Shown here: one piece after another, positions 11,540 to 38,249 of the stretch
Layout: every line of letters begins with the position of its first letter
How positions within the stretch are numbered: position 1 is the first letter of the stretch
Assembly: GCF_030704535.1 (NCBI RefSeq)
Contig: NC_081807.1
Location: forward strand, 4,009,001-4,073,000
Length of the DNA: 64,000 nt
Source of the DNA: Vitis vinifera
Lineage: Eukaryota > Streptophyta > Magnoliopsida > Vitales > Vitaceae
Direction: 5' to 3'
Notes under the pieces: model-generated
The model's database searches: none
What the model was told of the DNA's origin: nothing
What the model saw: the letters and a program-made list of their open reading frames with translations, nothing else
Program-made: the position numbers and the translations under genes

Positions 11540-12370
11540 TGAAATTTCTCAAATGGATGAAACCACACAAAATCAATTTCTCTCTCCTACTCTTCAAACA
11601 CATCTCTTTTTCTTCAAATGCATCCCTCAATTCTCAATCCCTTTGACAATCTTTCACCTCTCATATCAATCAATGTGGCTACCTAGGTCTTTCTCAAACT
11701 CAATTCAATAAACTTTTCATTATGGCATTTCAATTAAGTGTCATTCTTATTGGTTATGATTTAATGGGATTTATTGATGTAACCTACCCCTGTCTTTTTC
11801 CCATTCTCAACAACACCACTAATTCTGGATATTCCTTATGAGTTAGACAAGATCCTTAGTGTCATCATTGTCTCTCTCACTCCCACTCTCATTCACTCTC
11901 ACTCTCATTTTGTTCATCACATCCGCACGAACCTCCCACAAGGCTTGGGCAACTTTGGCTAACACCTATGTCAAACCATCATGTGGTCGACTCACTTCAC
12001 TCAAAGAACAACTTTGGCTCCTCACCAAAGACACTTAATCAATCACAAAATATTTGCAATTTGCTAGAAACATTTTTGATGAACTCACATTGTTCAATGC
12101 TCCACTAGATCATGAAGATTTTATCTTTCAAATCCTTGGTGGTCTAATGACTACAAGGATCTTTGCTTTGCTATTCATGTTCATGAAAGCCCAATCACCT
12201 TTGACGAATTACATGAGAAACTCCTCAATCGTGAAAAAGATCTCAAATATAAAGCGGAGAATAACTATTCCAAGACACCTGTTAACACCTACCATGCCTT
12301 CAAACAACCCCATAACCAACATCAACCACCTTCTTATCATCCTCAAAACCTGATTAACCAAAGTTATCTA
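11540..12370 (+). pseudogene. Copia-type gag fragment (UBN2-like), copy 1, decayed
   Basis: Frames in this stretch encode pieces of the N-terminal gag polypeptide of Ty1/Copia retrotransposons: FDELTLFNAPLDHEDFIFQI, followed in shifted frames by the ...FAIHVHES.., DELHEKLLN.. and NQHQPPSYHPQN segments. Stops and frameshifts break it throughout; here the frame shifts after FQILGGL. No protease, integrase or reverse transcriptase follows. Copies at 22240-23070 and 26620-27370 share the same decay, so the fragment was already dead when the block was duplicated. Confidence 0.75.
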
Positions 12371-13732: not shown

Positions 13733-15049
13733 TGTTAGGAAATTGAGGCTAATCCAACCTATGGTAATCACTCTAGAGGGGGGGGGGGGTGAATAGGGTG
13801 ATGGTCTCTTTTCGCAAGTTTAAACTATGTGAATTTAAGAGACAATTATATGCAAGTATATGATAAGGAATATAAAGACAATTGCATATAAATTAAAGAA
13901 TAGTGAAGAGAGAATGCAAACACAAGAGTTTATAGTGGTTCGGCACAACCCGGCCTACATCCACTCTCCTCTAGCTTCAATCTTGAGCTTGAGGTTCCAC
14001 TAATTCAAGGCTTCCAAACCAAGCCTTCAAGCAATACAATTGGATTATGATTCCAATTCACCCTCTTGTAGGACTTTTGGCTCCAAGCACCCTTTACACT
14101 TCTTAAGAGATATCCCACTCTTGAACAACCCCTCAAGTGATACCCCACATTTGAAAAACTTCCTTTCAAAGATTTACAAATGAATGATCTCTAAAAAAAT
14201 CCTAGTACAAGAACTTTAAGCTCAAATGATACAAGAAAAACTAGAATTGAATGGTGCACTAAAGATATGCAAGTTTTGAAATAATGGTGCACTCAAAAAT
14301 ACTCTTCCAAGGCTCAAATATAATCAAAAAAGATTTGAGAAGGTTAAACTCTTGAAACAATGAAGATTAGAGCCTTTTTATAGAAGAAAAAAGTCAAACT
14401 AACCGTTGGGGGTTCAATCGGTCGAGCTAGGGGTTGACCGGTTGACTAGCCGTTAGCATTTAATGCTTGGTAGGTGACCGTTGGGCCTCAACCGGATCTC
14501 AACCGGACCTCGACCGAACCTCAACTGGACCTCGACCAGACCTCAACCGGTTGAGGTTCAACCTTGACCGGGAAGAGAAGGCCACTGGGAGAGAGAAAAA
14601 CTTTTTGGCATCCTTCAACCAGTCTTCGACCGGACTAGCACAATTGGTTGACCGGTTGAGCCATTTTTTGGCTCAACACCTAAACTTTTTAATACAAGTT
14701 TGAAAATCATTTAACACAAGGTTTTAGTTGAAAACATGAAATCATCAAATTCTTAAGATATTTAAAACAATATTACTCTTGGATGATTTTGGTGTATAAA
14801 TAAAGAATGAAATGTATGAAAGTCATAGTGCACCAACAACCTTACAAAGAGATCTTATGAAGCTTTGGTCTTGAAAAACTCTTCTCTTTGAGGTGGTCTT
14901 CTTCTTCATGATTTCTCCTTGGCTTGATTTGTCTTTGTGATTGCCACTTTGGAAATCGTCTTACCTAATCACACTTGAAATATGATCATTAGTTCTAAAC
15001 TTTGTTTTGTTATCATAAAAATTAAGATTAATCAAACCTTGGTTTCACA
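13733..15049 (-). mobile_element. solo LTR A, 1.32 kb, LTR retrotransposon
   Basis: On the minus strand it starts TGTGAAACCAAGGTTTG and ends CCTAACA, the TG...CA form of a long terminal repeat. A perfect 5-bp target duplication GATTC flanks it (13728-13732 and 15050-15054). No internal region or second LTR is present, so it is a solo LTR left by recombination between two LTRs. A G tract near 13780 and a CCGGTTGA-rich segment at 14400-14670 are shared with the opposite copy at 18990-20349. The open frame at 14467-14703 is only an 11-bp repeat read in frame. Confidence 0.85.
14487..14552. repeat. 11-bp minisatellite inside solo LTR A
   Basis: Six successive units of the form CTCAACCGGAC (variants CTCGACCGAAC, CTCAACTGGAC, CTCGACCAGAC, CTCAACCGGTT) run without gaps. 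The sister LTR at 18990 lacks this expansion, so it arose after the two copies separated. Confidence 0.7.
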
Positions 15050-15960
15050 GATTCTTTGTAAATAACACTTTGCATTCTATCATCTCAAATGTTATTGTAA
15101 ATCTCTTCCAGACTTTTATAAAAGGTAAACCTACTAATAGAATGACTTTTATAAAAGGTAAACCTACTAATAGAATGAATATATTATTGTAAGGATTATA
15201 ATTTGTTACTTTTTCAACTTCTTCTTCTTTTATTTTATTTTACAAAAATATTAAAAAATTATTTACCTATAAAGTTTAGTTAAATCTTTTATGACAAGTG
15301 TTATTTTTTTTTTTTACCAATAGTGTCTATACATATAGGATTTTTCCCATAAAAGGAAAAATGATTTTTTATTAAAAAAATAAAAAATATCATATGTGGA
15401 AAAATCATCTCTATAATTTCCCATAAAAGAACAAAAAAAATAAAACAATGTCATATGTGGAAAAATTTTCTATTTTAAAGATCAAATATATATTTTTTAG
15501 GGACAAAAATACCCTTGAAAAATATATATATATATTTTTCAAATTTAGGAATTATGTCCGAAAATGAAAATTGATTAAAAATTATAAAAGAGTTAACGTT
15601 ATGTCACTATAATTCTATACAAATGACTTTGTATAAAAGGAAACTTGAATGAATATATCCCACCCTTTCCAAAAATTATAATTTCCCATAAAAGAAAAAG
15701 GCATTTTAATTAATAAAATAAAATAATACCTTATGTGAAAAAACTTTTTATATCCCTTCCACAAAATTTGCATACTGTAAATTTTTCAGATACCTAGTTC
15801 ATTTTAAATCAAAGAAAATATGAGTAAAAATATCATATGAAAAAAAAAAAAAAAAAAGAACGTTTGATGAAATTTCAAAATAATGATTGTTAGTTGTATT
15901 TAACCCCAGAACTCAAGTCGAAAAAAATTAACCCAACTTGAAGAAAATTGTCATCCCATG
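15050..15960. repeat. upstream block of peptide gene 1
   Basis: This matches 28210-29140 upstream of peptide gene 3. It contains a 33-bp unit perfectly doubled (15112-15144 and 15145-15177) that is single in the other copy, and iterated motifs of the form TTTCCCATAAAAG and GTGGAAAAATCATCTCTATA (15345-15470). No gene is visible. Confidence 0.6.
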
Positions 15961-15991
15961 AACTATTACCATTTTTGTGGAGTGTGATGAG

Positions 15992-15999
15992 TATAAATA
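15992..15999 (+). promoter_or_regulatory. TATA box of peptide gene 1
   Basis: TATAAATA lies 74 bp before the ATG. The same box, after a conserved ACTATTACCATTTTTGTGG, stands 74 bp before the ATG of gene 2 and 69 bp before that of gene 3. A leader of about 40 nt is predicted. Confidence 0.65.
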
Positions 16000-16065
16000 T
16001 GTCTTACACTGCTATCCACGCAGCCATTCATTCTCTAACCTGAAGCAGCTCATCTCTACACCTCC

Positions 16066-16398
16066 ATGGCGTCTTCCAAGCAATCAACTGCTGTTGCACT
16101 CGTCCTGGTTTTTCTTATCATCTCTCTTGGTACACCACCTTTCATTATTTCTTTATTATATGTATGGGTTTATGTTAATGGCAATGAGAAATAACGTATA
16201 CAGTGGTTTCTTGTGGTAGGTGGTAAAGAGGCAGAAGCTAATTGCGATTTTCTGGGACCCAGCCAGACAAATGAGGAGTGGATCCCATGCGAGACAAATC
16301 AGGAGTGTGTCCCGGCCTGTTCTGTAAATGGATATCTCACCGGCCTGTGTACCACCGATCCTCCTACCGGGAACAATTACTGTTGCTGCTTTTATTAA
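16066..16398 (+). CDS. secreted cysteine-rich peptide, defensin-like (copy 1)
   Basis: Two exons (16066-16129 and 16220-16398) join at a phase-1, 90-nt GT-AG intron to encode 80 residues. Exon 1 is a hydrophobic signal peptide, beginning MASSKQ and ending near VFLIISLG; exon 2 is the mature peptide. An intron at the end of the signal-peptide exon is the usual layout of plant defensin-like (DEFL/LCR) genes. The eight cysteines are spaced C-x14-C-x5-C-x3-C-x9-C-x10-C-C-C, with a GYLTGLC stretch resembling a gamma-core. Compared with copy 3 the first gap is long because of an inserted 8-residue repeat. Its two extra cysteines are replaced by Ser (GPSQTN) and Trp (EEWIP). Such peptides act outside the cell in defence or signalling; the role of this one is unknown. 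DEFL membership is inferred from pattern, not from a search. Confidence 0.7.
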
Positions 16399-18989
16399 GC
16401 CCTTGTATCTCAAACTATCATCATAATAAGGGCTTAATTTGCCAATTTCATTATTAATGTATTTGCATTATGAAGGAAACAACGTTTATTTTAAATTCTT
16501 ATTCTTGATGCATTTCATATTTTCTATTTTTAAAAATAAAGAATAATAATATTATAAAATATATAAGGACATTTATGTAAAAAAAAATGTTGAACTTATT
16601 ATGTATTCTTAAAAATCACTATTAAAATTTGAGGTGGTAAAGATTTTTTTAAAAAAAAATATAATATTATGAAATATATAATGAATCTTATGTAAAAAGT
16701 GTCAATATTCCTTATATCCTTGAAAATCACTTTTAATATTTGAGGTAGTAAAATTTTTTTAATATCTCGAGGTTTTATATAAAAGTTATTATCATTTTTT
16801 GCTTTTAAGAAAATAAAAAATAAAAACTATATCTAATTAATTACTAGACATGATTTTCATTTGCAACCTTAAATACCTTGGCAATGACACATGAATGCCA
16901 AATATTGGAAAAAGAAAATGATAATTATCAATATAATCGCTAAAGGGCTAAATTATCGTCATTTTTTCGTGGCTTTGAATCACACCATACCTACATGGAT
17001 CTTGAAGTTATGATTATTTCTCTTAATAAACCTCAATGACATACAAACGATCGATGGTTGGGATTGGTAGGATCACAAATACAAAAAGTTTTAGGGATAT
17101 AATATTTTATATGAGGAGAAAACAATTCACATCTATCTTAATTATTGATAACAAACTATTCACACTATATATATGTCTTGAATTTATGATTAAAGTGATA
17201 TGAAAGGTTGGTGCACTTTTTTTAAAAAAAATATTTTAAATATTTATTATTTACCCAATATCGTTTTCATTTTCAACCTAAGTTACCTTCTTATTGACAA
17301 ACGAATAATAAAAAAAATAATTACAATTATGACTCGTGAATGCCAAATATTGAATGAATAAAAAAAAAGATAATTATAATATAAGCTATTAGAGCTTAAA
17401 ACCTAAAATTCTTGGGTCAAATTATTACCATTTTTGTGGCTTCGAATTGTACTATATATACTAGTCTTGAGTCTATGATTATACTGATATCAATGCACTT
17501 CTCTTAAATAAGTGTCTATGACATACTCCTATGATTTTTATTTTTTTAATATCTTAATTTTTATTAATTTCCTCATATCTTTTCAACCTCAATAATGACT
17601 GATGCTTTATTTTTATTTTTTTAGTTTTAACTCTTGATAAGATATCTTGAACCCTTAAACGGAAAGATTTTTATGACAAACTTTATAAATTGTCATTTCA
17701 ATGAAAGTCTTGTCTCATTGGTAATAGTTGATGTTAATGCCACGTCAGAAAATGGAAATTGGTTAAAATCTCTTGAGGAGTTAATATTATGTCACTAGTT
17801 ACATATGATTTTATGTGAATAATACTTTGCATTTTATTATTTCAAATGTTGTTGTAAATCTCATCAGGAAACTTACTAATGGAATGGATATATTATTCTA
17901 ACCTTTATAATTGTTTCTCTTTGGATTTCTTTTTATTTTATTTTATTTTCTAAAATATTAAAAAATTATACTAGTAGTATATATATGTATATATATATTC
18001 CTCCACTTCCAAAAAATATAATTTCCCATAAAAGAAAAAAACATATTTTATTTAAAAAAAATAAAACAATACCATATGTAAATAAAACAATATCACATGT
18101 GGAAAAATCATCTCTATAATTTCCCATAAGAGGAAAAAAAATATAAAAAAAAAACAATACCATTTACCTATCTATTTTAAAGATCAAATATAATTTTTGA
18201 GACAAAAATACCCTTAAAAGTTGTTAGTTTTTTCAAATTCAGGAATTATATTATTACCATGTAAAATAAAAATTGATTAAAAACTCTAAAAGAGTTTATC
18301 ATTTTCTTGGCGTATTAACAAGATTACAGGGGAGTGGAAATGGTATTCTACACTGATTACAGGTGATTACAGTGACTTTCAGTAGAATATATTTAAAAAA
18401 TATTCAAGGAATTACAATAAGTGATTTTAAATAATACAAATTAAGTCAATATCTTTGTATAAGAGTTTCATCATTTTACATCGAGACTATTACTATTTTC
18501 TATTTGTCTAACATTTTTTTAAAGGTGGTTAATAAGTATTTGATAATAACAAAATTAGGAAGCTATATATCTAATGATTTTCATGTTGCGCCCGGATAAA
18601 AGAAGGGCAATAAGGTAAGGAAAAGTTCTTTAAAATTTGTATTTTTTAAGATTTGCTCAAATCGTGATATTGTCCCTAATTTTTGTAAACACTATTTGGA
18701 TTTTAATAATCCTTTTAGTTATTGATAAAATAAATAGAGTGAAAAGAAAATGTCAATTTGATGTTTTAAGTATTGGAGTTTAAAAAAAGTAATGTTATTT
18801 ATATATTATTTGTATTATTTCCTATTTAATTTAATTCTTTATTTTATTGAGATAAGAATGAAAGAAATCTTTCTATAAAAAGCATTTAATTCTAATTAAA
18901 CTTTTTGGGGTTTAATTTCTTTTGTTTGTGGATAAAATATTATCTCTAGTACATATATATTATTTGATAATAATTTATTGAAAGTCTAT
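16399..18989. repeat. downstream blocks of peptide gene 1, with relic promoters
   Basis: No intact gene is visible. The stretch matches 23675-25640 downstream of gene 2. It holds an internally doubled block (16500-16620 and 16630-16770) and decayed promoter-like segments that resemble the peptide promoter (AAATTATTACCATTTTTGTGG at about 17419-17439, and a poorer one at 16955-16980). The right part repeats the upstream block (17580-18300). At 18308-18420 is the segment GGTGATTACAGTGACTTTCAG that stands before gene 4 and the pseudogene, but no exon follows it here. Confidence 0.6.
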
Positions 18990-20349
18990 TGTGAAACCAA
19001 GGTTTGGTTAATCTTGATTTTAATGATAACAAAACAAGGTTTAGAACTAATAATTATATTTCAAGTGTGATTAGGTAAGACGATTTCCAAAATGGCAATC
19101 ATAAAGACAAATCAAATCAAAGAGAAATCATAAAAAAAAAAAAAAAAAAGACCTCAAAGAGAAGTGTTTTGCAAGATCCAAGTTTCATAAGATCTCTCTG
19201 TAAGGTTGTTGGTGCATTAAGATTTTCATATATTACATTCTTTACTTATGCACCAAAATCATCCAAGAGTTATTTTGTTTTAAATATTTTAAAATTAGAT
19301 AATTTCATGTTTTTAACTAAAATATTGTGTCAAATGTTTTGCAAACTTGTTTAAAAGGTTTTAAGTTGAAAAAGTTGGTTGTTGAACCAAAAACGGCTCA
19401 ACCGGTTGAACCAAATGAGGAATCGATCGACCCCTAGTTCAATCGGTCGAGGGGTGTAAAAAAATCTTTTCTCTTTTCTAGAATGGTTGTTCAACCGATC
19501 AAGGTTGAACAAGAATCAGTCAACCCCCACCTCAACCGGTCGAGGTCTGGTCAAAGGGCAGTCGAGATCCAACGGTTACTTGTCAAACATTAAATGCTAA
19601 CGGTTAGTCAACCAGTCGACCCCTATCTTGATCGGTAGAACTCCCAATGGCTAGTTTGACTTTTTTTCCTCAATAAAAAGACTTTAATCTTCATTGTTTC
19701 ATGAGGTTAATCTTCCTAAACTTTTTTTGAATATATTTGAGCTTTGGGAGAGTGTTTTGAGTGCATAATTGTTCTAAAACTTGCATATTATTAGTGCATC
19801 ATTCAATCCTAGTTTACTTGTATCATTTGAGCTTAAAGTTTTGTACTTGGAGTTTGTGAAATTATTTATATATCTTTGAGATGAAGAATCTAAGTGTAAG
19901 GTATCACTTAGGGATTCTCAAGTGTGGAGTATTACTTGAGGGATTGTTCAAAAGTGGGGTATCTCTTGAGAAGTGTAAATGGTGCTTGGAGCCAAAAGTC
20001 CAAGAGGGTGGATTGAAATCATAATCCAATTGTATTGCTTGAATGTTTGGTTTGGAAGCCTTGAATTAGTGGAATCTCAAGCTTGAGATCGAAGCTAGAA
20101 GAGTGTGGATGTAGGCCGCGTTGTGTCAAACCACTATAAAAATCTTGTGTTTGCATTCTCTCTTCTCTACTCCTTTATTTTATATGCAACTGTCTTTGCA
20201 TTGTTTTATTATATACTTGAATATATTTGTCTCTTACATTCATATAATTTAAATTTGCAAAAAGAGACCATCACTCTATTCCCCCCCCCCCCCCCCCCTC
20301 CCCTCTAGGGTGATTACCATAGGTTTGGATTAGCCTAATTTTTCTAACA
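18990..20349 (+). mobile_element. solo LTR B, 1.36 kb, same family as solo LTR A
   Basis: It starts TGTGAAACCAAGGTTTGGTT and ends TTTCTAACA. It is the inverted counterpart of 13733-15049. The flanks TCTAT (18985-18989) and CCTAT (20350-20354) fit a 5-bp target duplication with one change. It has the same CAACCGGTTGA-rich middle and a C tract near 20281-20298 where LTR A has G. Again no internal region remains. LTRs A and B form an inverted pair around peptide gene 1. Confidence 0.82.
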
Positions 20350-20354
20350 CCTAT

Positions 20355-22000
20355 TATTTCTCAAAAATTTGTGTAAACATATAAGAAGCTTGATGGTTTT
20401 TATGTTAAGGTAATACATTTCTCATAATAATTATTAAATTGATGTTATAAACTTGTGGTGATATCAACTTAAACTAATATTAGGCTCATAAAATTTAATA
20501 AGGTAATATTATTAAATTAAGAGTTTTTGTTTCTTAACATAAACATCTCATCAAAATTTGATTCTAAATAAATTAGGCGAGAAGTTCAAGTAATTAACTT
20601 CTTTGTTATGATTTTTATGCATCTCATTTATAAAATAATTAAAAAAAAAAAAATCATGTTTGTAGTATTATCATATTTTATATATCTATGAGATAGTTGC
20701 AATTCAATATGCATTAAATTTTAACCAAAAATAAATTTGAATAAGATGTGTTATCATGAAATTATTTGCACATTAAAATTATTATGTTAAGAAATATAAT
20801 CTTAATCGATTAATTCTAAATATGAAATACTTATTTGCTTAATTGAGTATATATTAATAAGTATACTATTTTGACACATAATCTTGTTTAATTATTAGTA
20901 ATTTTATTCCTTTTAATATTTGATCATAGAAGTTTTTTTAAATAGTAATTTGTTCTCCATTGAAGATCAAGGATTGTTGTAACAATTTAGACTCAATTGA
21001 AGTATAAATAGGATTGGTAAATGTTTTGAACTTAAAATTATTTTTTGTAAAGTTTTTGAAAAAATAAAGGACATTCAAGCGAGGAGCAGCACTCAAGTGT
21101 TGATCACTCAAGCGCCCCACACTGTTCAAGCACTCAAGCTACCAAAGTGGGCTCAAGTGGCCATGAATTTCCAACCAAGATTATTTCATGCAAATTTGAT
21201 TTGGAAGTCTTTTAAAACCAAGCCTCTTTGGGATTTACTCCAATAAATACCTCATTATAATCCTTGAGCGTAGGAGATGGTTTTTAAAGATTATAAAGAT
21301 TAGAAAAAGACCTCAAACTTATTGAGAAGTTCTCATTGAGGAGAAAGCAAAGTATCACACCATTTCCAATATCTCATTCAATGATTCGATCTTTGAATCT
21401 TGCGTTGAAGACTTTCATCCATTCAACGAGGTTGAAGTGATCCACTAGAGCAATTAAAGGTTGTTGCATTATAGACGTGAATTAAGTTGTAGGTACTAGA
21501 AAGTGAGTCTTTAGGGTAAAACAGTCAAGTAAATTTGTATAACTTGATTTTGTATAGTGGATTTAGAGTAGTAGGCCTTAGATCTCATAATTTTTTATCT
21601 CTGTAGTTAGTGTAATGGTTTTTCACTCAAAAATCTTGTAACCATTGCATATCTCTTAATTTCATTGATATATCATTAAATAATTGATCATCCTTAACAT
21701 CTAGCATGTTATCCCTAGAAGATAAAAATAATATTTCTATATTTAAAGATTTCAAGTATAACTCATTTGGTTATACAAGGTATCGTAGTATCGTAAGGAT
21801 AAAAATTGGGGATAATACATATAAATTTTTATTTTAAAATTTAAAATCACTCATTCACCCCCTTTGGGTGTTCCTTATTGAACTTTCAGTTTTCATATAT
21901 ATATATATATATAATGATTATAATGTGATTTTGATAGAAATTTTTTAACTTTAAAAATATATGACAACCTTTATATACATATAATAAGAAAAGTCAATCA
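20355..22000. repeat. duplicated block (copy 2), with empty MULE site
   Basis: This is collinear with 6818-7163 joined to 9953-11260, including the CTCAAGCG-rich segment (21068-21135) and the stretch before ACTCATTCACCCCC. At 20694-20702 it reads TAGTTGCAA without an insertion, exactly where copy 1 carries the MULE. A short (TA)n run lies at about 21896-21912. No gene is visible. Confidence 0.65.
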
Positions 22001-22239
22001 AATATGAAAATCATGAAATTATAATTAGTATATTTTTGTATTTTAGTTATTTTCATTTTCTTATTTTTAGTAGTATAAATAAATCCTTTATTTTAGTTAG
22101 TTTCCTTTTCTTATTTTTGGTAATTTTAGTTTGACTACATACTATGACAAGTATATATTGTACAAAAACTTCATCAATGAAAGTTAAAGACCATTTCATA
22201 ATTTTTTACCTTTTCTTGTATTTGATTTATTGGATTAGA

Positions 22240-23070
22240 GCATTTCTAAGCTCTCACAAGGAGAAATTTCTCAAGTGGTTGAAACCAAACAAAATCAATT
22301 TCTCTCTCATACTCTTCAAGCACATCTCTTTCTCTTCAAATACGTCTCTCAATTCTTAATCGCTATGACAATGTCTTTCTCAAACTCAATTCAACAAACT
22401 ACTCATCATGACATTTTCAATTTAGTGTCATCCTTATTGGTTATGATTTAATAGGATTTATTGATGGAACCTACCCTTGTCCTCTTCCCATTCTCAACAA
22501 CACTCCTAATTCTGAATATTCCTTATGAGTTAAACAAGATTCTTAGTGTCATCATTATCTTTGTCACTCCCACTCCCACTCTCATTTTGTTCATCGCATC
22601 TGCACGAACCTTCCACAAGGTTTGGACAACTTTGGCTAACACCTATGTCAAACCATCATGTGGTCGACTCACTATACTCAACGAACAACTTTGGCTCCTC
22701 ACCAAAAACACTTAATTAATCACAAAATATTTGCAATACGCTAGAACCATTTTTGATGAACTCACTTTGTTCAATGCTGCACTAGATCATGAAGATTTTA
22801 TCTTCCAAATCCTTGGTGATCTAGATGATGATTACAAGGATCTTTGCTTTGCTATTCACGTTCATGAAAGCCCGATCACCTTTGACGAATTACATGAGAA
22901 ACTCCTCAATCATGAAACACATCTTAAATATAAAGTGGAAAAGAACTATTCCAAGACACTTGATAACACCTACCTTACCTTCAAACAACCCCATAACCAA
23001 CATCAACCACCTTCCCATTATCCTCAAAACCTGATTAACCAAAGTGATCCACTCTTCTATCCAAACTAAA
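22240..23070 (+). pseudogene. Copia-type gag fragment (UBN2-like), copy 2, decayed
   Basis: This is the best preserved of three copies: 22731-23069 reads without a stop through FDELTLFNAALDHEDFIFQI, DDDYKDLCFAIHVHESPITF, DELHEKLLNHE and HNQHQPPSHYPQN. A stop separates it from the upstream frame (22461-22715, with TFHKVWTTLANTYVKPS and LNEQLWLL). No other retrotransposon domain follows. It is dead and was carried along by the segmental duplication. Confidence 0.78.
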
Positions 23071-23264
23071 AAAGTTTTCTTATCTTATTTTTGGTAATAT
23101 ATATATAATTTATTTTAGTTAATTTGATTTTCTTATTTTTAACTGTCTATATATCCCTTATTTTAGTTAGTTTCCTTTTAGATTTTTGGTAGTTTTGATT
23201 TGACATGAGAAATCAAGTCGAAAGAAATTAACAACTATTACCATTTTTGTGGAGTGTGATCCAG

Positions 23265-23272
23265 TATAAATA
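23265..23272 (+). promoter_or_regulatory. TATA box of peptide gene 2, shortened upstream region
   Basis: TATAAATA stands 74 bp before the ATG, as in copy 1. Only about 65 bp of promoter homologous to copies 1 and 3 remains upstream: near 23200 the sequence changes abruptly to the retroelement flank that in unit 1 lies near 13125. A stretch of about 30 bp between GAAATTAA and CTATTACC is missing too. Confidence 0.6.
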
Positions 23273-23338
23273 TGTCTTAGACTGCTATCCACGCACCCAT
23301 TCATTCTCTAACCCGAAGCAGCACATCTCTACACCTCC

Positions 23339-23674
23339 ATGGCGTCTTCTAAGCAATCAACTGCTGTTGCACTCGTCCTGTATTTTCTTATCATCTCTCT
23401 TGGTACACCACCTTTCAATATTTCTTTATTATATGTATGGGTTTATCTTAATGGCAATGAGAAATAACGTATACAGTGGTTTCTTGTGGTAGGTGGTAAA
23501 GAGGCAGAAGCACTGAACTGCGTTTTTCTGGGACCCTGCCAGACAAATCAGAAGTGTGTCCCATGCCAGACAAATGAGGAGTGTGTTCCAGCCTGTTCTG
23601 CAAATGGATATTCCACCGGCATGTGTACCACCGAGCCTCCTACCGGGAACAATTACTGTTGCTGCTTTTATTAA
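23339..23674 (+). CDS. secreted cysteine-rich peptide, defensin-like (copy 2, 10 Cys)
   Basis: Exons 23339-23402 and 23493-23674, with a 90-nt phase-1 intron, encode 81 residues. The signal peptide is nearly that of copy 1, with a Val-to-Tyr change (LVLYFLI). The mature part has ten cysteines: C-x5-C-x5-C-x2-C-x5-C-x3-C-x9-C-x10-C-C-C. The additional pair comes from a doubled module, GPCQTNQKCVP followed by CQTNEECVPAC. Copies 3 and 4 have this module once. Ten-cysteine forms would allow a fifth disulphide; whether it forms is unknown. The gene lies about 0.3 kb after a dead gag fragment, so its upstream region is unusually short. Assignment as defensin-like rests on gene layout and cysteine pattern. 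Confidence 0.7.
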
Positions 23675-25700
23675 GCCCTTGTATCTCACAAACTATCATC
23701 ATAAAAGGCCTTTAACTTGCCAATTTCATTATTAATGTATTTTATTTTAAATTCTTATTCTTGATACACTCCATATTTTCTATTTTTAAAAATAAAGAAT
23801 AATAATATTATAAAATATATAACATTTATGTAAAAAAAAGTCCAACTTACCTTTCTTAAAAATTGCTGTTAAAATTTAAGTTGGTTAAGATTTTTTAATA
23901 AAAAATAATAATATTATAAAATATATAACGAATCTTATGTAAAAAATGTCGATATTCCTTATATCCTTGAAAATCACCTTTTAATATCTCGGGTTTTTAT
24001 ATAAGAGTTATTATCACTTTTTGCTTTTAAGAAAATAAAAAATAAAAAATATATCTAATTAATTACCTTGACAATGACACATGAATGCCAAATATTGGAA
24101 AAAGAAAATGATAATTATCATGTAAAGTATTAGAGCTTAAAATGTAAAGTTCTCAAAATAATGGAATAAAAATATATGTTTTCTATCAAGCAAATATAAT
24201 TCATAAAGGGCCAAATTATGTCATTTTTTCATGGCTTTGAATCACACCATTCCTACATGGATCTTGAAGTTATTATTATTTCTCTTAATAAACCTCGGAT
24301 GACATAGTGATTATGTTCGGATTAGTAGGATTACGGATACAAAAAGTTTTAGGGATATAATCTTTTATATGAAGAGAAAACAATTCACACCTATCTTAAT
24401 TATTGATAACAAACTATTCACACTATATATATGTCTTGAATTTACAATTAAAGTGATATGAAGGGTTGGTGCACTTTCTTTTAAAAAAAATATTTTAAAT
24501 ATTTATTATTTACCCAATATCGTTTTCATTTTCAACCTCAGTTACCTTCTTATTGACAAACTAATAATAAAAATAATAATTACAATTATGACTTGTGAAT
24601 GCCAAATATTGAATGAATAAAAAAAAGAAAATTATAATATAAGCTATTAGAGCTTAAAACCTAAAGTTCTTGGGTCAAATTATTACCATTGTTGTGGCTT
24701 ATACTAGTCCTGAGTTTATGATTATAGTGATATCAAGCTTTGGTGCACTTCTCTTAAACATGCGGTCTATGGCGCAATCTTATGATTTTATTTTTTTAAT
24801 ATCTTAATTTTTATTAATTTCCCCATATTGTTTTCATTTTCAACCTCAATAATAACTAATGCTTTAATTTTTTTAGTTTTAACTCTTGATAAGATATCTT
24901 AAACCTTTAAGTGGTAAGGTTTTTATACAAGCTTTATAAATTGTCATTTCAATGAAAGTCTTGTCTCATTGATAATAGTTGATGTTAATACCATGTCAGA
25001 AAATGGAAATTAATTAAAATCTCTCTAAGAGTTAATATTATGTCACTAATTATATATGATTTTATGTGAATAATACTTTACATTTTATTATTTCAAATAT
25101 TGTTTTAAATCTCTTCTGACTTTATATAAAAGGAAACTTACTGGAATGGATATATTATCATAAGCATTATCATTTGTTTCTCTTTGGATTTCTTTTTATT
25201 TTATTTTCTAAAATATTAAAAAATTATACTAGTAGTATATATATGTATACATATTCCCCCACTTCCAAAAAATATAATTTCCCATAAAAGAAAAAAACAT
25301 TTTTTATTAAAAAAATAAAACAATATCACATGTGGAAAAATCATCTCTATAATTTCCTATAAAAGGAAAAAAAATTATCAAAAAAAAAAAAAAAAACAAT
25401 ACCATTTACCTATCTATTTTAAAGATCAAATATAATTTTTCAGACAAAAATACCATTAAAAGTTGTTAGTTTTTTCAAATTCAGGAATTATGTTATTACC
25501 ACGTAAAATGAAAATTGATTAAAAACTCTAAAAAAGTTTAACATTTTCTTGGCGTATTAACAAGATTACAGGGGAGTGGAAATGGTATTCTGCACTGATT
25601 AAAGGTGATTACAGTGACTTTCAGCAGAATATATTTCAAAAATATACAAGGAATTACAATGAGTAAGGAGACAAATCTACTTACCGAATATCTGAATGTG
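23675..25700. repeat. downstream blocks of peptide gene 2
   Basis: This is collinear with 16399-18420 with small indels. It includes promoter-like relics near 24210 (AAATTATGTCATTTTTTCATGG) and 24678 (AAATTATTACCATTGTTGTGG), each followed by sequence like the leader of a peptide gene but with no exon. The shared flank block lies at 24840-25540. No gene is visible. Confidence 0.6.
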
Positions 25701-25744
25701 TTAATTGGGAAGGTGTTGACAGGAAGGATTCCTTTCTTTCCTTT

Positions 25745-25913
25745 CAACTATCACCTTTTTTGTGGAGTATTGTGATCCAGTATATGTATGTCTCATATTA
25801 CTATCAATTCATCCATTCATTCTGTATCCTGCAGAGGCTCATCCCGTCCAAGCAGTCAACTGCTACTGCACTCGTCCTGGTTTTTCTTATCATCTCTTTT
25901 GATATTCCACTTT
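25745..25913 (+). pseudogene. truncated peptide-gene copy (exon 1 only)
   Basis: Promoter (TTTTTTGTGGAGTATTGTGATCC), leader and most of exon 1 match gene 4. The segment that should hold the ATG is deleted between GGCTCAT and CCGTCCAAGCAG. The splice donor is changed from GGTAT to GATAT, and homology stops at about 25913, where sequence matching 21424 (CAACGAGGTT) begins. Exon 2 is absent. It cannot make the peptide. It records a rearrangement joining a peptide unit to the duplicated LTR-like block. Confidence 0.75.
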
Positions 25914-26600
25914 CAACGAGGTTTAAATGATCCACTAAAGTAATTAAAGGTTGTTGCATCGTGGACGTTATTGTATCGTGAACGTGAATCAAGTTATAGG
26001 TATCAGAGGATAAGTCTTTAGGGTAAAATAGTCAAATAAATTTGTATAATTTGATTTTATATAATGGATTTAGAGTAGTAGGTTTTAAACCTCATAGTTT
26101 TTTATCTCTATAGTTAGTGTGTGGGTTTTCCACGTAAAAATCTTGTGACCGTTGCATATCTCTTAATTTCATTGCTATATCATTAAATAATTTATTATCG
26201 TTGTATTGGGGATAATACATATAAATTTTTATTTTAAATTTTAAAATTACTCATTCACCCCTTTGGGTGTTCCTATTAAACTTTTAGTTTTCATATACAT
26301 ATGTAAAATGATGATAATGTGATTTTGATAGAAAGTTTTTAACTTTAAAAATATATGACAGCTTTTATATAAATATAATTAATAAGAAAAGTCAATCAAA
26401 TATGAAAATCATGAAATTATAATTAATATATTTTGTATTTTAGTTAGTTTCAATTCATTTTTCTTAATTTTTTATATAGTGTATATATCCTTTAATTTAG
26501 TTAGTTTCATTTTCTTATTTTTAGTAGTGTAAATACATTCTTTATTTTAGTTAGTTTCCTTTTCTTATTTTTGGTAGTTTAGTTTGACTACATACTATAA
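25914..26600. repeat. duplicated block (copy 3, partial)
   Basis: The sequence picks up at the point equivalent to 21424 and runs, with a deletion near 26205, into the stretch equivalent to 21815-22140. No gene is visible. Confidence 0.55.
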
Positions 26601-26619
26601 CAAGTATATATCGTATAAA

Positions 26620-27370
26620 ATTTGAACACATCTCTTTCTCTTCAAATATGCCTCTCAATTCTCAATCGCTATGACAATCCTTCACCTCTCATATCAATCA
26701 ATGTGGCTACTTAGGTATTTCTCAAACTCCATTCAACAAACTACTCATCATGACATTTTCAATTCAATGTCATCTTTATTGGTTATGATTTAATAGGATT
26801 TATCGATGGAACCCATCCTTGTCCTCTTCCCATTCTCAACAACATCACTAATTCTAAATATTCCTTATAAGTGAGACAAGATCCTTAGTGTAATCATTGT
26901 CTTTCTCACTCCCATTCTCATTTTGTTCATCGCATTTGCACGAACCTTCCACAAGGCTTTGACAACTTCGGCTAACACCTATGTCAAACCATCATGTGGT
27001 CAATCCACTACACTTAAAGAATAACTTTGGCTCGTCACCAAAGACACTTAGTCAATCACAAAATATTTGCAATATGCTAGAACCATTTTTGATGAACTCA
27101 CTTTGTTCAATGCTCCACTAGATCATGAAGATTTTATCTTTCAAATCCTTGGTGGTCTAGATGATGACTACAAGAATCTTTGCTTTGCTATTCACCAATC
27201 GATCATGAAATACATCTCAAATATAAAGCAGAGAAGAACTATATCCAAGACACCTGTTAACACCTACCTTACCTTCAAACAACCCCATAACCAACATCAA
27301 CCACCTTCCCATCATCCTCAAAACCTGATTAACCAAAGTTATCCACTCTTCTATCCAAACCAAAAAAGTT
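26620..27370 (+). pseudogene. Copia-type gag fragment (UBN2-like), copy 3, decayed
   Basis: The frame at 27067-27402 retains FDELTLFNAPLDHEDFIFQI and DDDYKNLCFAIH. It then lacks the HVHES...KLLN segment kept in copy 2, through an internal deletion near 27195. Stops interrupt the upstream part. It is a third passive copy of the same dead fragment. Confidence 0.72.
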
Positions 27371-29160
27371 TCCTTATCTTATTTTTGGTAAAGTATATAT
27401 AATTTATTTGAGTTAATTTGTTTTTCTTATTTTTAATATGTATATATCCCTTTTTTTAGTTAGTTTCCTTTTGCTACTTTTGGTTTGACTACATCAAGTA
27501 TATAACATCATAATTTCTTTCTCTTTTTGTATTTGCTTTAACATATACTTTTTTAATTGATTAAAAAAAGTTATAGTATTTTGTCATATTTTATATATGT
27601 TGACATAATTTGTTTAATATCCTAGTATAATCATGTAAGAAACTTACATACTTATAAATTTAAATGTGGATTGAAGCACTTCATATTTTAGTTTTTATGT
27701 CAATATTAAGATAATTTCATATAGCAAGATTCGAATTTTATATGCAAGATTAGTCTCAAGTGTGCTTAATTATGTTGCTTAAATGTCTTACACCATATAG
27801 AAATAAGAGGAATATGAACCTTTTGAATGTTAATTTCAATAGTTTTAATATTCTAATTTTTACATATTTTATGAAAGGTATGCAAATAATTTTTTATATG
27901 CATAAACCTTTTGTCTGCTCATTGTTCGTGAAAGTTTCATGTTCTCATTACTTTTACATAATATATTAAGATGGATCCTCGATAATGATTAGTGTTTTAT
28001 TTTTTTAGTTCTTTCTCTCCTTTTATAATAAGATACCTTAAATTCTTAAATGGTAAGGTTTCTACTATAAGCTTTATAAATTTTCATTTTAATGAAAGCT
28101 TTGTCCCATCAATTGTACAACATTGGTCATAGTTGATGTTGATACCACGTCAGAAAATGAAAATTGATTAAAAGCTCTAAAAAAGTAAACATTATATCAC
28201 TGATAACATATGATTCTTTGTAAATAACACTTTACATTCTATCATCTCAAATGTTATTGTAAATCTCTTCTTGACTTTCTATAAAAAGTAAACCTACTAA
28301 TAGAATGAATATATTATTGTAAGGATTATAATTTGTTTCTCTTTCAATTTCTTCTTCTTTTATTTTATTTTATAGAAATATTAAAAAATTATTGACCTTT
28401 AAATTTTAGTTAAATCTTTTATGGTAAGTGTTATTATTATTTTTTTTACCAATAGTGTCTATACATATAGGATTTTTCCCATAAAAGGAAAAATGATTTT
28501 TTATTAAAAAATAAAACAATATCATATCTAGAAAAATCATCTCTATAATTTCCCATAAAGAAAAAAAATTACCAAAAAAATAAAGAACAAATGTATAATT
28601 TTTGGGGACAAAAATACCCTTAAAAATATGTTTTTTTTTTTTCAAATTCAGAAATTATGTCAGAAAATGAAAATTGATTAAAAATGATAGAAGAGTTAAC
28701 GTTATGTCATTAGTGACGTATAATTCTATATGAATGACTTTGTATAAAAAGGAAACTTACTAATGGAATGAATATATCCCACCCCACTTCCGAAAATTAT
28801 AATTTCCCATAAAATGAAAAGGTATTTTTATTAATAAAATAAAACAACACCATATGTGAAAAAAACTTAATTTGTATACCGTAAATTTCACTCACACCTC
28901 TTCACCATTTCTAATGTTCGATGTTTGAGTTAAGTACGTTTTGTTATTATGAATTTGAAAATTTTCTAGACACCTCAATTCATTTTAAATCAAAGAAAAT
29001 ATGATTAAAAATATCATATGAAAAAGAGGAAAAAAGTTATTTAATAAAATTACAAAATAACGATTGTTAGTTGTATTTAACCTGAGAAATCAAGTCCAAA
29101 GAAATTAACCCAACTTGGAGAAAATTGTCATTTCATGAACTATTACCGTTTTTGTGGAGT
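27371..29160. repeat. upstream blocks of peptide gene 3
   Basis: This is collinear with 13058-13732 joined to 15050-15990, without the solo LTR, and without the MULE-type insertion (the site near 27430 is empty). It carries the iterated TTTCCCATAAA and GTGGAAAAA-type motifs at 28470-28600. No gene is visible. Confidence 0.6.
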
Positions 29161-29169
29161 GCGATCCAG

Positions 29170-29177
29170 TATAAATA
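29170..29177 (+). promoter_or_regulatory. TATA box of peptide gene 3
   Basis: TATAAATA lies 69 bp before the ATG; a short leader deletion next to AAGCAGCTC explains the five-base difference from copies 1 and 2. The upstream ACTATTACCGTTTTTGTGG element is present. Confidence 0.6.
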
Positions 29178-29238
29178 TGTCTTAGACTGCTATCCACACA
29201 CCCATTCATCCTCTAACCCTAAGCAGCTCTACACCTCC

Positions 29239-29547
29239 ATGGCGTCTTCCAAGCAATCAACTGCTGTTGCACTCGTCCTGGTTTTTCTTATCATCTCTCT
29301 CGGTACACCACCTTTCATTATTTCTTTATTATATGTATGGGCTTATCTTAATGGCAATGAGAAATAACATATACAGTGGTTTCTTGTTGTAGGTGGTAAA
29401 GAGGCAGAAGCAATTGAGTGCCATTTTCTGGAAACCTGCCTTTCAAATCAGGAGTGTGTCCCAGCCTGTTCTGCAAATGGATATCTCACCGGCCTGTGTA
29501 CCACCAATCCTCCTACCGGGAACAATTACTGTTGCTGCATTTCTTAA
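29239..29547 (+). CDS. secreted cysteine-rich peptide, defensin-like (copy 3)
   Basis: Exons 29239-29302 and 29393-29547, joined at a 90-nt phase-1 intron, encode 72 residues. The signal peptide is identical to that of copy 1. The mature part has eight cysteines spaced C-x5-C-x5-C-x3-C-x9-C-x10-C-C-C and ends CCCIS. It lacks the 8-residue internal repeat of copies 1 and 2, so it shows the simpler form of the family. The first cysteine segment (ECHFLETCLSNQEC) differs more between copies than the C-terminal half, which is nearly fixed (ANGYLTGLCTT). Function is unknown; defence or signalling is only a family-level expectation. Confidence 0.7.
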
Positions 29548-29739
29548 GCCCTTGTATCTCACAAACTATCATCATAATAAGGCCTTTAATTTGCCAATTT
29601 CATTATTAATGTATTTGCATTATTAAGGAAACCACATTTATTTTAAATTCTTATTCTTAATACACTTCATAATTTCTATTTTTAAACATAAAGAATAATA
29701 ATATTATAAAATATATAAGGACATTTATGTAAAAAATGT

Positions 29740-29784
29740 GACTCACTATTATAAAAATGTCGACATTTTTTATAATAGTGAGTC
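29740..29784. repeat. 45-bp near-perfect palindrome at a unit junction
   Basis: Left arm GACTCACTATTATAAAAATG and right arm CATTTTTTATAATAGTGAGT pair almost completely around a central GTCGAC, with one A/T indel. On its left the sequence matches the tail after genes 1 and 2 (ACATTTATGTAAAAAA). On its right it matches a different block (28040 onward). It therefore sits exactly at a junction between rearranged pieces. Confidence 0.7.
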
Positions 29785-30690
29785 GGTTTATATTTTATAA
29801 TCTTAAATGGTAAGGTTTCTACTATAAGTTTTATAAATTTTCATTTTAATGGAAGCTTTGTCCCATCAATTATACAACATTGTTCATAGTTGATGTTAAT
29901 ACGAAAATGAAAATTAATTAAAAACTCTAAAAAAGTTAACATTATATTACTAGTAACATAAGATTCTTTGTAAATAACACTTTGCATTCTATCATCTCAA
30001 ATGTTATTGTAAATCTCTTCTTGACTTTCTATAAAAGGTAAACCTATTAATAGAATGAATATATTATTCTAAAGATAATAATTTGTTTCTCTTTCAATTT
30101 CTTCTTCTTTTATTTTAAAAAATTATTTACCTTTAAATTTTAGTTAAATCTTTTATGGTAAGTGTTATTATTTTTTTTACCAATAGTTTTCCCATAAAAG
30201 GAAAAATGATTTTTTATTAAAAAAATAAAACAATATCGTCTATAAATAAAACAATATCATATGTGGAAAAATCATCTCTATAATTTCATATAAAAGAAAA
30301 AAATATTATGAAAAAAATAAAACAATACCATATATGGAAAAACGATATATTTTAAAGATCAAATATATAATTTTTGGGGACAAAAGTACCTTAAAAATAT
30401 GTTTTTTTTTTTTTTCAAATTCAGGAATTATGACCTATAATTCTATATGAATGACTTTGTTTAAAAGGAAAGAATGAATATATCCCACCCCACTTGAGAC
30501 AAAAAATAGCTGTTATTACCATTTAAAATGAAAATGGATTAAAAACTCTAAAAGAGTTGACATTTTCTTGGCGTATTATAAGATTACAGGTGATTACAGT
30601 GACTTTCAGGTATACAAGGAATTACAATAAGTAAGGAAACAAATCTACCTGGTGTTGACAGGAAGGATTCATTTCTTTCCTTTCAACTAT
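29785..30690. repeat. flanking block upstream of peptide gene 4
   Basis: This matches 28040-28750 and then, from about 30540, the stretch TTTTCTTGGCGTATTA to AAGGATTC that also precedes the pseudogene at 25745 and stands alone at 18308. No gene is visible. Confidence 0.55.
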
Positions 30691-30794
30691 TACCTTTTTT
30701 GTGGAGTACTGTGATCGAGTATATGTCTTATATTACTATCCACTCACCCATTCATTCTGCAACCTGCAGAGGCTCATATCTGCACCTAGCCTCC

Positions 30795-31112
30795 ATGGCG
30801 TCGTCCAAGCAATCAACTGCTACTGCACTCGTCCTGGTTTTTCTTATCATCTCTTTTGGTATACCACCTTCATTATTCCTTTTATCATATGTATGGGTTT
30901 ATGTTAATGACAACGAGAAATTACATAGACAGTGGTTTTGTGTGGTAGGTGGTAAAGAGGCAGAAGCATCTGGGTGCAAATATCTGCAGGGACCCTGCAA
31001 GACAAATGAGGAGTGTCCCCCAGCCTGTGTTGCAAAGGGATATACCAGCGGCGCCCTGTGTTCCATCGATCCTTCTACCCGGGCCACTCGCTGTTGCTGC
31101 TTTGTCCCTTGA
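30795..31112 (+). CDS. secreted cysteine-rich peptide, defensin-like (copy 4, most diverged)
   Basis: Exons 30795-30858 and 30949-31112, with a 90-nt phase-1 intron, encode 75 residues. The mature part has eight cysteines: C-x6-C-x5-C-x3-C-x10-C-x10-C-C-C, ending CCCFVP. It carries GPCKTNEECPPAC once. It is more basic than the others, with KGYTSGALC and STRATR. Its TATA region reads TATATG instead of TATAAATA, and its upstream DNA is of the second type, shared with the pseudogene. The intron has no in-frame stop here, unlike copies 1-3, so a retained intron would still be read through to give 105 residues. An AATAAA at 31166-31171 is a fitting polyadenylation signal. Function is unknown. Confidence 0.7.
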   Translation: MASSKQSTATALVLVFLIISFGIPPSLFLLSYVWVYVNDNEKLHRQWFCVVGGKEAEASGCKYLQGPCKTNEECPPACVAKGYTSGALCSIDPSTRATRCCCFVP

Positions 31113-31199
31113 GCCCTTCTATCTCACAAACTATCATCATAATAAGGCCTTGTATTTGCATTATTAATAAAAACCACATTTATTTTTAATTCTTTTTTA

Positions 31200-33504: not shown

Positions 33505-34779
33505 ATATGTGTGGACCCCGCATTTTGGCTCATGCGTTTTCCACTCAATGGCGAGCTCGACTTTTATTTTAAAAATGATTTTTATTGATTAAAAAAATGA
33601 CTTGGAGTCGCCACTTATTTTTGTTTTATTTTTAAAAAGGGTAAACGAAATAAGAAAGAAAACCCTAAGTGTGACTCCTTATTTCGGGAAAGGTGATTTA
33701 CGAAAAAACCAGATCGGGCTCGGGGGTCAGGTTACTTATCAGGAAGGTTTGGTAAAAACCGTAGCACCCCTCTAAGTCCCTAAAGTCGGGTCTCTACTAA
33801 TAAAATGAAGCTGACGTGACAATCAATAGGAAAATCAATGGATACTCAAATCGATTAAGCGCATATGGGAATCAAAACATGCAATAGAGAATGACTAGAA
33901 TAGGAGTAGATGCGTACTTGGGCCACGAACGAGCAATGCGCTATCATAAAAATGAGGTTAGTGCACAATATAGAGCACGAAACATATCACATGCATCACC
34001 AAACGGAAATTAAAATTGTTCGAAGGAAAACTGGATTTTTGAAATTCATTTGAAAATTGGAGTCTTAGAGGTTATTTAAAAATGAGAGTTTTAAAGATTA
34101 TTTGAAAATTGGATTCTTAGGAAGTATATGTAAGAATGAGAATTTTAGAAATTAAATTTGAAAGAAATTGGGATTTTGAGGAATTATTTGAAAGTTTGGG
34201 ATTTTTAAGGAAAACTAAGTTACGAAAATTAGGGCTTTGGGAATTAAATTTTGAAAGAAATTAGAATTGTAAGTTACTTGAGAAGTAGAGATTATGAAAA
34301 TCAATTTATAAAAAAGTTGGCAATCTTGAAAATCATTCGAAGGTAGAAAAAATAATGAATAAAATAATAGTGATAATAATAATAATAGGTAGCGGGGTAA
34401 ATACGGGGATTGGAGCATGGGAAACTGAAAATTAAGTTCATAGATAGGACAATTGGAATTTCAAATGACTAAATTTATAAATCGAAATTTTGAAGAATTA
34501 GACTTTAATGATTAAGATTTTTAAGAGAAATAAATAGGTAAGTATAGGATAATGCTACTAATTAATCTAAACGATATTGGAACGGATGAAAGTGAATAGT
34601 GAGATTTATGAGATTAAAAATTAAATTTTGAAATATTGAGATTTTTAAAAGAAACAAATAAATAAATATAGAATAACGTTACTAATTAATCAAAAACGAT
34701 ATTTAGACGAATGAAAATGAATAGTGAGATTTGTGAGATTAAAAATTAAATTAGGAAGTCAGGTTTTTGAAGAATTGGA

Positions 34780-35530
34780 CTTTGAATAAATAAATAAATA
34801 TAGGATGACAATTCTGCTTAAGGAAAATAATATTTAAATGAATAAAGAAGAATAGTGGAATTTTTAGGGTTGAAAATTAAGTTAGGACATCGGGTTTCTG
34901 AAGGATTGGACTTTAAATAACTAGATAAAAACGGGATTGTAATTCTAATTGATGAAAATAAGATTTAAACGAATTATTGAAAAATTAAGTCAAGGCATGG
35001 GATTTTCGAAGGATTAGACTTTAAATAAATAAGTAAATAGGGGAAGATAATTCTAATTGATGAAAATAAAATTTAAACGAATTGTGGAATTTTTAGAATT
35101 GAAAAATTTAGTTAGGGAGTTGGATCTTCGAAGGATTAGACTTTAAATAAGTAAGCGAATATGAGATACTGATTCTAATTAAAGAAAATAACATTTAGAC
35201 AAATAGTAGAATTTTAGGATTAAAAATTAAATTATGACATTGGATCTTTTTAAAGGATTGGATTTTGGATAAATAAACTAATATAGGATGATAATACTAA
35301 TTAACGAAAATAATCATTTAAACCGAATAAAAAGAATAGTGGAATTTTTAGGGGTTTGAAAATTAAGTTAGGACATCGGGTTTCTGAAGGATTGGATTTT
35401 AAATTAGTAAACTCGTATAGGATGATAATACTAATTAACGAAAATAATCATTTAAGCCGAATAAAAAGAATAGTGGAATTTTTAGGGGTTTGAAAATTAA
35501 GTTAGGACATCGGATTTATGAAGGATTGGA
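34780..35530. repeat. degenerate tandem repeats inside the 4.47-kb element
   Basis: Units of roughly 110-120 bp recur, each with a version of AAATTAAGTTAGGACATCGG, GAAGGATTGGACTTTAAATA and GAATAGTGGAATTTTTAG. The best matched pair is at about 35283-35400 and 35411-35530. Units decay toward 34100 on the left and into (AAT)n-rich DNA on the right. Confidence 0.55.
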
Positions 35531-35875
35531 TTTTAAGGAATGAGATTTTTAAAAGAAATAAATAAATAAGTATGGAATAATAATAATAATAACAAGAATA
35601 ATATCTAAACGGATGAAAGTAAATAATGGAATATTTGAAATTGAAAAATAAATTAGGAAGTCATATTTTTTTAAGAATTGAATTTTAACGATCAGAATTT
35701 TTAAAAGAATTAAATGAATAAATACGAAATAATGATAATGATAACAAGAATAATATCTAAATGGACGAAAGTAAATAGTTGAATATTTGAAATTGAAAAA
35801 TAAATTAGGAAGTCATTTTTGAATAACCGAGCCTTAATGATTTGAATTTTTAAAAGAAATAATTAAATAAATATG

Positions 35876-35922
<47 letters not shown>
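35876..35922. repeat. (AAT)n microsatellite
   Basis: About fifteen uninterrupted AAT/ATA units run here within the LTR-like element; a shorter relic is at 35577-35590. Confidence 0.8.
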
Positions 35923-37645: not shown

Positions 37646-38183
37646 TTGTTACTCCAAAACAGGGAAGACTCCAGTTCCCTTCCTCTCCCTATTCTCTGAT
37701 CCCCCTTCTCCTCCGTTCCTTCCCCTCCTGTCCCTTTTTCTCTCCCCAGATCCCCCTCTTCCTCATTTTTTTTTTTTTTTTGTTTTTTTGCTCCAAAACC
37801 TTCCCCCCCCAGACAGCTTCCCCTGTCACCCTTTTCTCTTTTCCTTTCAGCCGTCCTCCCTGTCCTGTCTTGTCACCTCATGCCCTTCATCCCGGGGTCG
37901 TCAGAGTAATGATCATAGAAAAGTAAAACCCTAAAAAAAATAAGCAAAACTGCTCTAGCCCGAGAAGGGATCTACAATATGTTATTCTCTTTTTTATTTT
38001 ATCTTATATTATATCTGGTCAACTAAATATAATGTTAGAGCTTAAAATATAAAGTGTTCAAAATACTATAAAAAATATTGGCTTCCATGAAATAAATATA
38101 ATCCTTAAAGGGCCAAATTATTGTCATTTTCATAATTTGAACTACACTATGTAGTGTTGGTGCACTTCTCCTAATTCACCTCT

Positions 38184-38244
38184 ATGGCATATAAATAATC
38201 AACCACTATTGCACTTTTCGTTGTTTTCCTCATCATTTCTCTCG
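38184..38244 (+). pseudogene. decayed exon 1 of a peptide gene
   Basis: After a short leader (GCACTTCTCCTAATTCACCT), an ATG opens a 61-nt stretch that aligns with exon 1 of the four peptide genes. It keeps STTIALFVVFLIISLG and the splice donor at 38245. One codon is missing and the glutamine codon CAA has become TAA, so it is dead. Exon 2 is not found downstream. DNA before it (38020-38160) and at 39545-39700 matches flanks of genes 1 and 2, which shows the array once reached this far. Confidence 0.7.
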
Positions 38245-38249
38245 GTATA

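Follow-up and report, generated by a model that had tools for sequence, protein, structure and literature searches.

A defensin-like gene array in the grapevine genome

The window analysed here, i.e. the whole stretch of DNA under study, is a 64-kb segment of the Vitis vinifera genome (C3:4009001–4073000, contig NC_081807.1); genome searches covered 495.6 Mb in 21 contigs. It carries an array of four neighbouring genes (genes 1–4, Table 1) that encode small disulfide-rich peptides, diverged from one another. The gene copies align over ~500–670 nucleotides (nt) with 77%–90% identity, thus the array did not arise by chance. An earlier note on this DNA had placed four two-exon genes at 16066, 23339, 29239 and 30795. 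They are located there, and all four are open from ATG to stop codon once a 90-nt GT-AG intron is removed, with chain lengths of 80, 81, 72 and 75 amino acids (aa). The placement of the intron is identical in genes 1–4, after codon 21 plus one base.

The signal segment (aa positions 1–28) displays 0–3 differences in each of the six gene pairs, which bears out the near-identical signal peptide described in the earlier note. A hydrophobic stretch and the residues AEA (aa positions 26–28) are seen in it by eye, and the four peptides are probably secreted. The half that had been called constant, C-x5-C-x3-C-x9/10-C-x10-CCC, is exact by the cysteine (Cys) spacings of all four mature peptides. At the C-terminus, CCC is followed by two or three non-Cys residues in every case.

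Family assignment

Profile scores place the four genes in PF25052 (AtDEF-like), an already catalogued plant defensin-like family; by this assignment the family is not new. Whole proteins score 37.5, 40.5, 45.1 and 48.0 bits for genes 1–4, all of which exceed the curated threshold of 25 bits. The alignment forms one stretch over profile positions 1–79 in genes 1, 3 and 4, and two stretches in gene 2. The mature part alone gives 27.7, 28.6 and 28.5 bits for genes 2, 3 and 4, and 23.1 bits, below the cut-off, for gene 1. The whole-protein scores, together with the predicted fold (see below), uphold the defensin-like nature proposed for the genes. The suggestion of an unrecognised, possibly lineage-specific family is not upheld, since PF25052 is curated and the same eight-Cys frame with a CCC end is found in a second grapevine array (on C2) and in banana (Musa balbisiana). 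The CCC end is for this reason not lineage-specific. The eight Cys are invariant across 11 aligned rows, and the window genes share this frame and its CCC end with the C2-type and Musa members.

A PF25052 search of the genome yielded at least 11 places, nine on C2 plus genes 3 and 4; this count is a lower bound because genes 1 and 2 were missed. A DNA search with gene 1 gave at least five places (also a lower bound), all in the window: the four genes and a relic at 25.7 kb. Gene 1 was also searched against plasmids, without a match.

Classical plant defensins (PF00304) show a C-x5-C-x3-C-x9/10-C stretch; their last strand carries C-x-C, and a further Cys stands apart at the C-terminus. The window genes share this stretch and the predicted fold with them, but CCC replaces both the C-x-C and the isolated final Cys, and the first loop is shorter in genes 3 and 4. 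The classical end layout is absent from all four genes. Scores against PF00304 (Gamma-thionin) do not exceed 14.5 bits for whole proteins (gene 1 not listed) or 14.8 bits for mature parts, below the cut-off of 25.1; those against the Defensin-like profile PF24552 are 16.1, 16.4, 17.8 and 18.7 bits, below the cut-off of 27. Thus the triple Cys is unlike the CxC end, as had been stated; however, it is a trait of the family and may, judging from a non-significant alignment with a scorpion toxin (see below), represent a CxC end in which x is a third Cys.

Table 1. Positions in the window of the genes, upstream motifs, relics and repeated segments.
Feature	Position	Strand	Remarks
TATAAAT upstream of gene 1	15992–15998	+	
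Gene 1 exon 1	16066–16129	+	start codon, signal peptide
Gene 1 exon 2	16220–16398	+	mature peptide from 16240; 8 Cys
TATAAAT upstream of gene 2	23265	+	
Gene 2 exon 1	23339–23402	+	
Gene 2 exon 2	23493–23674	+	mature peptide from 23513; 10 Cys
TATAAAT upstream of gene 3	29170	+	
Gene 3 exon 1	29239–29302	+	
Gene 3 exon 2	29393–29547	+	mature peptide from 29413; 8 Cys
TATATG upstream of gene 4	30720		in place of TATAAAT
Gene 4 exon 1	30795–30858	+	
Gene 4 exon 2	30949–31112	+	mature peptide from 30969; 8 Cys
Fifth copy	25746–25915	+	promoter and exon 1 relic; lacks a start codon and the donor GT
Sixth copy	38177–38247	+	short exon 1 trace with in-frame stop
Duplicated segment with gene 1	15961–18422	+	84.9% identical to 23233–25664
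Duplicated segment with gene 2	23233–25664	+	
Copia-type gag fragment (PF14223)	22716–23066	+	lies shortly before gene 2; 31.1 bits against a cut-off of 27

Cysteine frame and a 9-residue module

The Cys spacing of the mature peptide is 14-5-3-9-10-0-0 in gene 1, 5-5-3-9-10-0-0 in gene 3 and 6-5-3-10-10-0-0 in gene 4 (8 Cys each), and 5-5-2-5-3-9-10-0-0 in gene 2 (10 Cys). Genes 1 and 2 differ from PF25052 in that one more 9-residue module separates the first Cys from the helix. In gene 2, positions 23537–23563 encode CQTNQKCVP and positions 23564–23590 encode CQTNEECVP, followed by AC, with two Cys per module. Taken one codon later, its two 27-nt units are identical at 22 of 27 positions. In gene 1, positions 16261–16287 encode SQTNEEWIP, without Cys, and positions 16288–16314 encode CETNQECVP, with two Cys, again followed by AC. 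Genes 3 and 4 have a single module. A protein of Vitis piasezkii (P0003) displays the gene 1 state, i.e. two modules, the first without Cys.

Duplication of the module, then loss of a Cys pair, appears to be the simplest order of events, although the tree of mature peptides leaves the order of duplication and loss unsettled. The array offers a small test case for the gain and loss of Cys pairs in disulfide-rich peptides.

Relatives in Vitis, on C2 and in banana

The gene 2 protein is identical to V. vinifera CK203_010717, the whole gene 3 protein is 99% identical to CK203_010718, and the gene 4 protein is identical to XP_019074454.1 (“PREDICTED: defensin-like protein 276”). Although gene 4 bears TATATG, its protein is the one with a defensin-like name in the database. 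Proteins related to the gene 1 and gene 4 types occur in V. piasezkii, with mature parts 90% and 96% identical. The relative of gene 4 (P0005) has 16 extra residues before GGKEAEA, which may be a gene-model error. The initial protein search yielded five proteins at E ≤ 10 among six candidates, all from Vitis. Among organism-named matches the window branch is confined to Vitis; two further matches (P0007 and P0008) have a mature peptide identical to that of gene 4. Lineage restriction, which the earlier note had raised, is not supported for the family and does not apply to the CCC end, but may apply to the diverged branch within PF25052 that the window genes represent.

The C2 array (C2:1833242–1858530) has five type A genes with one identical mature peptide, and four type B second exons that lie before or between the type A genes. 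Three of the four type B exons have an extra Cys before CCC, giving CCCC. A type B exon 1 was sought upstream of two C2 copies and a likely one was found for the first only. A profile search with both C2 types gave 12 proteins among 193 candidates, including C4D60_Mb06t29760 from M. balbisiana. The C2 array and this banana protein have the eight Cys, the x5-x5-x3 spacing and the CCC end in common with the window genes, and type A genes have one intron each, at the same position. A CCC-ended defensin-like frame is thus common to a eudicot and a monocot.

The C2 type A mature peptide is 74% identical to that of Musa (34/46 aa), whereas the window genes show 34%–38% identity to type A and 40%–48% to Musa. 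Type B is intermediate, with 57% identity to both type A and banana. PF25052 scores are lower in the window (37.5–48.0 bits) than for the best C2 gene (67.8) and the Musa protein P0012 (72.4). A tree of nine mature peptides splits C2 plus Musa from the window type (100/100), but the order within the array is poorly resolved. By these comparisons it is the branch in the window that has diverged further. Type A mature peptides are uniform and the window peptides differ from one another; one grapevine locus has let the frame diversify, while the sister array of the same genome kept it uniform.

We tentatively read the array, at somewhat short of an even chance, as a record of stages in disulfide-frame evolution, in which the module was duplicated in gene 2 and its first copy in gene 1 lost both Cys, restoring the eight-Cys frame with a longer first loop. 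On the same reading, the peptide family is old and has elsewhere stayed conserved, and this one branch of it turned to loop diversification in Vitis.

Outside of C2 and C3 there were four weak genome matches (best E = 1.65). Two of these, on C7 (L018:813–923 and L019:877–987), encode related CCC-ended peptides of a further branch; they stay under the cut-offs of PF24552 (26.8 and 23.0 of 27 bits) and PF25052 (17.9 and 19.4 of 25 bits). The matches on C6 (two internal stops) and C9 were set aside, their translations not showing this CCC-ended frame.

Predicted structure

Genes 2 and 3 were modelled with AlphaFold2. The gene 3 model shows one beta-strand, a helix and two beta-strands with a predicted local distance difference test (pLDDT) score of 87.9, and the gene 2 model has the same strand/helix order (pLDDT 76.2). 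The predicted fold is like that of antifungal plant defensins. This beta-alpha-beta-beta order agrees with a cysteine-stabilised alpha-beta (CS-alpha-beta) fold, which the earlier note had expected as an alternative to a knottin. No solved structure was matched significantly by sequence (best E = 0.3 for gene 3 and 0.37 for profile A3). In the phmmer alignment with scorpion alpha-toxin OD1 (E = 0.3, not significant), CCC aligns with the C-W-C of the toxin.

Sequence divergence

Replaced/silent codons in the mature part number 12/3, 10/1 and 19/2 for pairs 1–2, 1–3 and 1–4, and 13/1, 20/1 and 24/0 for pairs 2–3, 2–4 and 3–4. By the Nei–Gojobori method (NG86), the replacement rate dN exceeds the silent rate dS in all six pairs. 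A neutral simulation with the same number of differences per pair (kappa 1 to 4) shows fewer silent changes than expected in pair 3–4 (P = 0.0010–0.0065, kappa 4 to 1). The deficit is marginal in pair 2–4 (P = 0.016–0.056), reaches 0.049 at best in pair 2–3, and is not found in pairs 1–2, 1–3 and 1–4. The excess of replaced codons over the neutral expectation is not significant in any of the six pairs. A clear excess of amino acid change was sought in each of the six pairs and rejected; only genes 3 and 4 stand out, through lack of silent changes.

Between 10 and 24 of the 43–44 mature columns differ in a pair, yet the eight Cys columns (Cys in either member) are unchanged in five of six pairs. 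The chance of this is 0.096 (1–3), 0.0051 (1–4), 0.045 (2–3), 0.0041 (2–4) and 0.0007 (3–4), from a hand-anchored alignment and with gene pairs that are not independent. In pair 1–2, 2 of 10 Cys columns differ. An initial test (P = 3e-4) was restricted to columns in which every one of the four peptides has Cys; it was partly circular and was replaced by the pairwise test. The loops are free, or driven, to vary around a preserved eight-Cys frame.

Proposed function

The net charge of the mature peptide (K+R minus D+E) is −6, −2, −3 and +2 for genes 1–4; C2 peptides have +3 (type A) and +1 (type B). With moderate confidence, we propose that this segmentally duplicated PF25052 array encodes secreted CS-alpha-beta peptides with an extracellular binding partner and probably a defensive role. 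The product would enter the secretory pathway and be cut after AEA, and the mature peptide would fold with four disulfides, the CCC end standing in for both the CxC strand and the terminal Cys. Likely disulfides would be C2-C5, C3-C6 and C4-C8, with C1 bonded to the central Cys of CCC; in gene 2 the two extra Cys would form a bond between them. Since the mature peptide is acidic in three of the four genes, a protein is the likelier extracellular partner, rather than a membrane. The loops between fixed Cys would diversify like those of peptides involved in defence or recognition. The acidic members may be regarded as candidate extracellular ligands in grape biology, rather than as lytic antimicrobials.

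In PMC8838067, overexpression of an Arabidopsis defensin-like (DEFL) peptide with weak antimicrobial action lowers nematode susceptibility. Giacomelli et al. 2012 is the source given in PMC4811896 and PMC12073698 for Botrytis-induced DEFLs and for a grape set of 79 DEFLs; this catalogue (79 genes, via PMC12073698) may already include the window genes. Grape is among the 12 species surveyed for Cys-rich peptides in PMC5557327. DEFL evolution is described as largely neutral in PMC5731061. The literature searched yielded no paper on defensin-like protein 276 or AtDEF-like PF25052, and none on Cys-Cys-Cys plant defensin-like peptides. Passages of PMC3179966 (grape segmental duplications) and PMC6690011 have no bearing on the window genes.

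Defence is the likelier reading. A role as reproductive signalling peptides, in pollen-pistil or embryo-sac recognition, is unlikely but has some standing: Arabidopsis DEFL groups are reported to be transcribed mainly in pistils (PMC5731061), and acidic mature peptides with loops that diverge around fixed Cys would suit ligand-receptor matching. No feature of the locus, however, points to reproduction in particular.

We give a low probability to classical cationic defensins acting on microbial membranes. The predicted fold, gene 4 and both C2 types, all net positive, are in line with such a role, but genes 1–3 are net negative, so the four charges fit poorly with a uniform set of cationic antimicrobials. 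The Gamma-thionin cut-off is not reached either, and the Arabidopsis DEFL At3g59930, which may lie outside PF25052, was only weakly antimicrobial (PMC8838067).

It is very improbable that the array is decaying, its frames open through recent duplication with little or no expression and no function: copies 5 and 6 are relics, gene 4 is without the TATAAAT of the other genes and replaced codons are at about the neutral expectation, but the four frames are open with GT-AG introns, the Cys columns are held even in the most diverged pair (3–4), and gene 1- and gene 4-type relatives (the latter being P0005) occur in V. piasezkii.

Duplicated segments and surroundings

The paired segments in Table 1 indicate that the array grew by segmental duplication. 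Further blocks between ~7 and 33 kb are mutual repeats, among them an inverted pair (13733–15049 and 18990–20349). No exon 2 was found for the fifth copy (25746–25915). Divergence between genes 1 and 2 is 2.2% in the intron and 14.5% in the 3′ flank, and between genes 1 and 3 it is 4.4% and 4.6%. Exchange between copies may be reflected here, since divergence varies by segment.

A weaker relative of the gag fragment lies at 27052–27399 (PF14223, 18.2 bits, under the cut-off of 27), and positions 12039–12350 show no PF14223 match. The earlier note had considered everything around the genes to be repeat-derived. This holds only in part: the flanks are mutual local duplications with copia-type gag fragments, and ordinary genes are present from ~44 kb onward.

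Overlapping local repeats, ~68%–82% identical, occupy positions 34493–35904. A reverse transcriptase fragment at 48050–48298 (+) has a PF00078 score of 28.4 bits vs. a cut-off of 29.6. The genes comprise an exon for the oligosaccharyltransferase subunit OST48 (PF03345, 44020–44430, +), a 408-aa open reading frame for a DUF677 protein (56380–57606, +) and acyltransferase exons (PF01553 and PF16076, 58828–60373, −).
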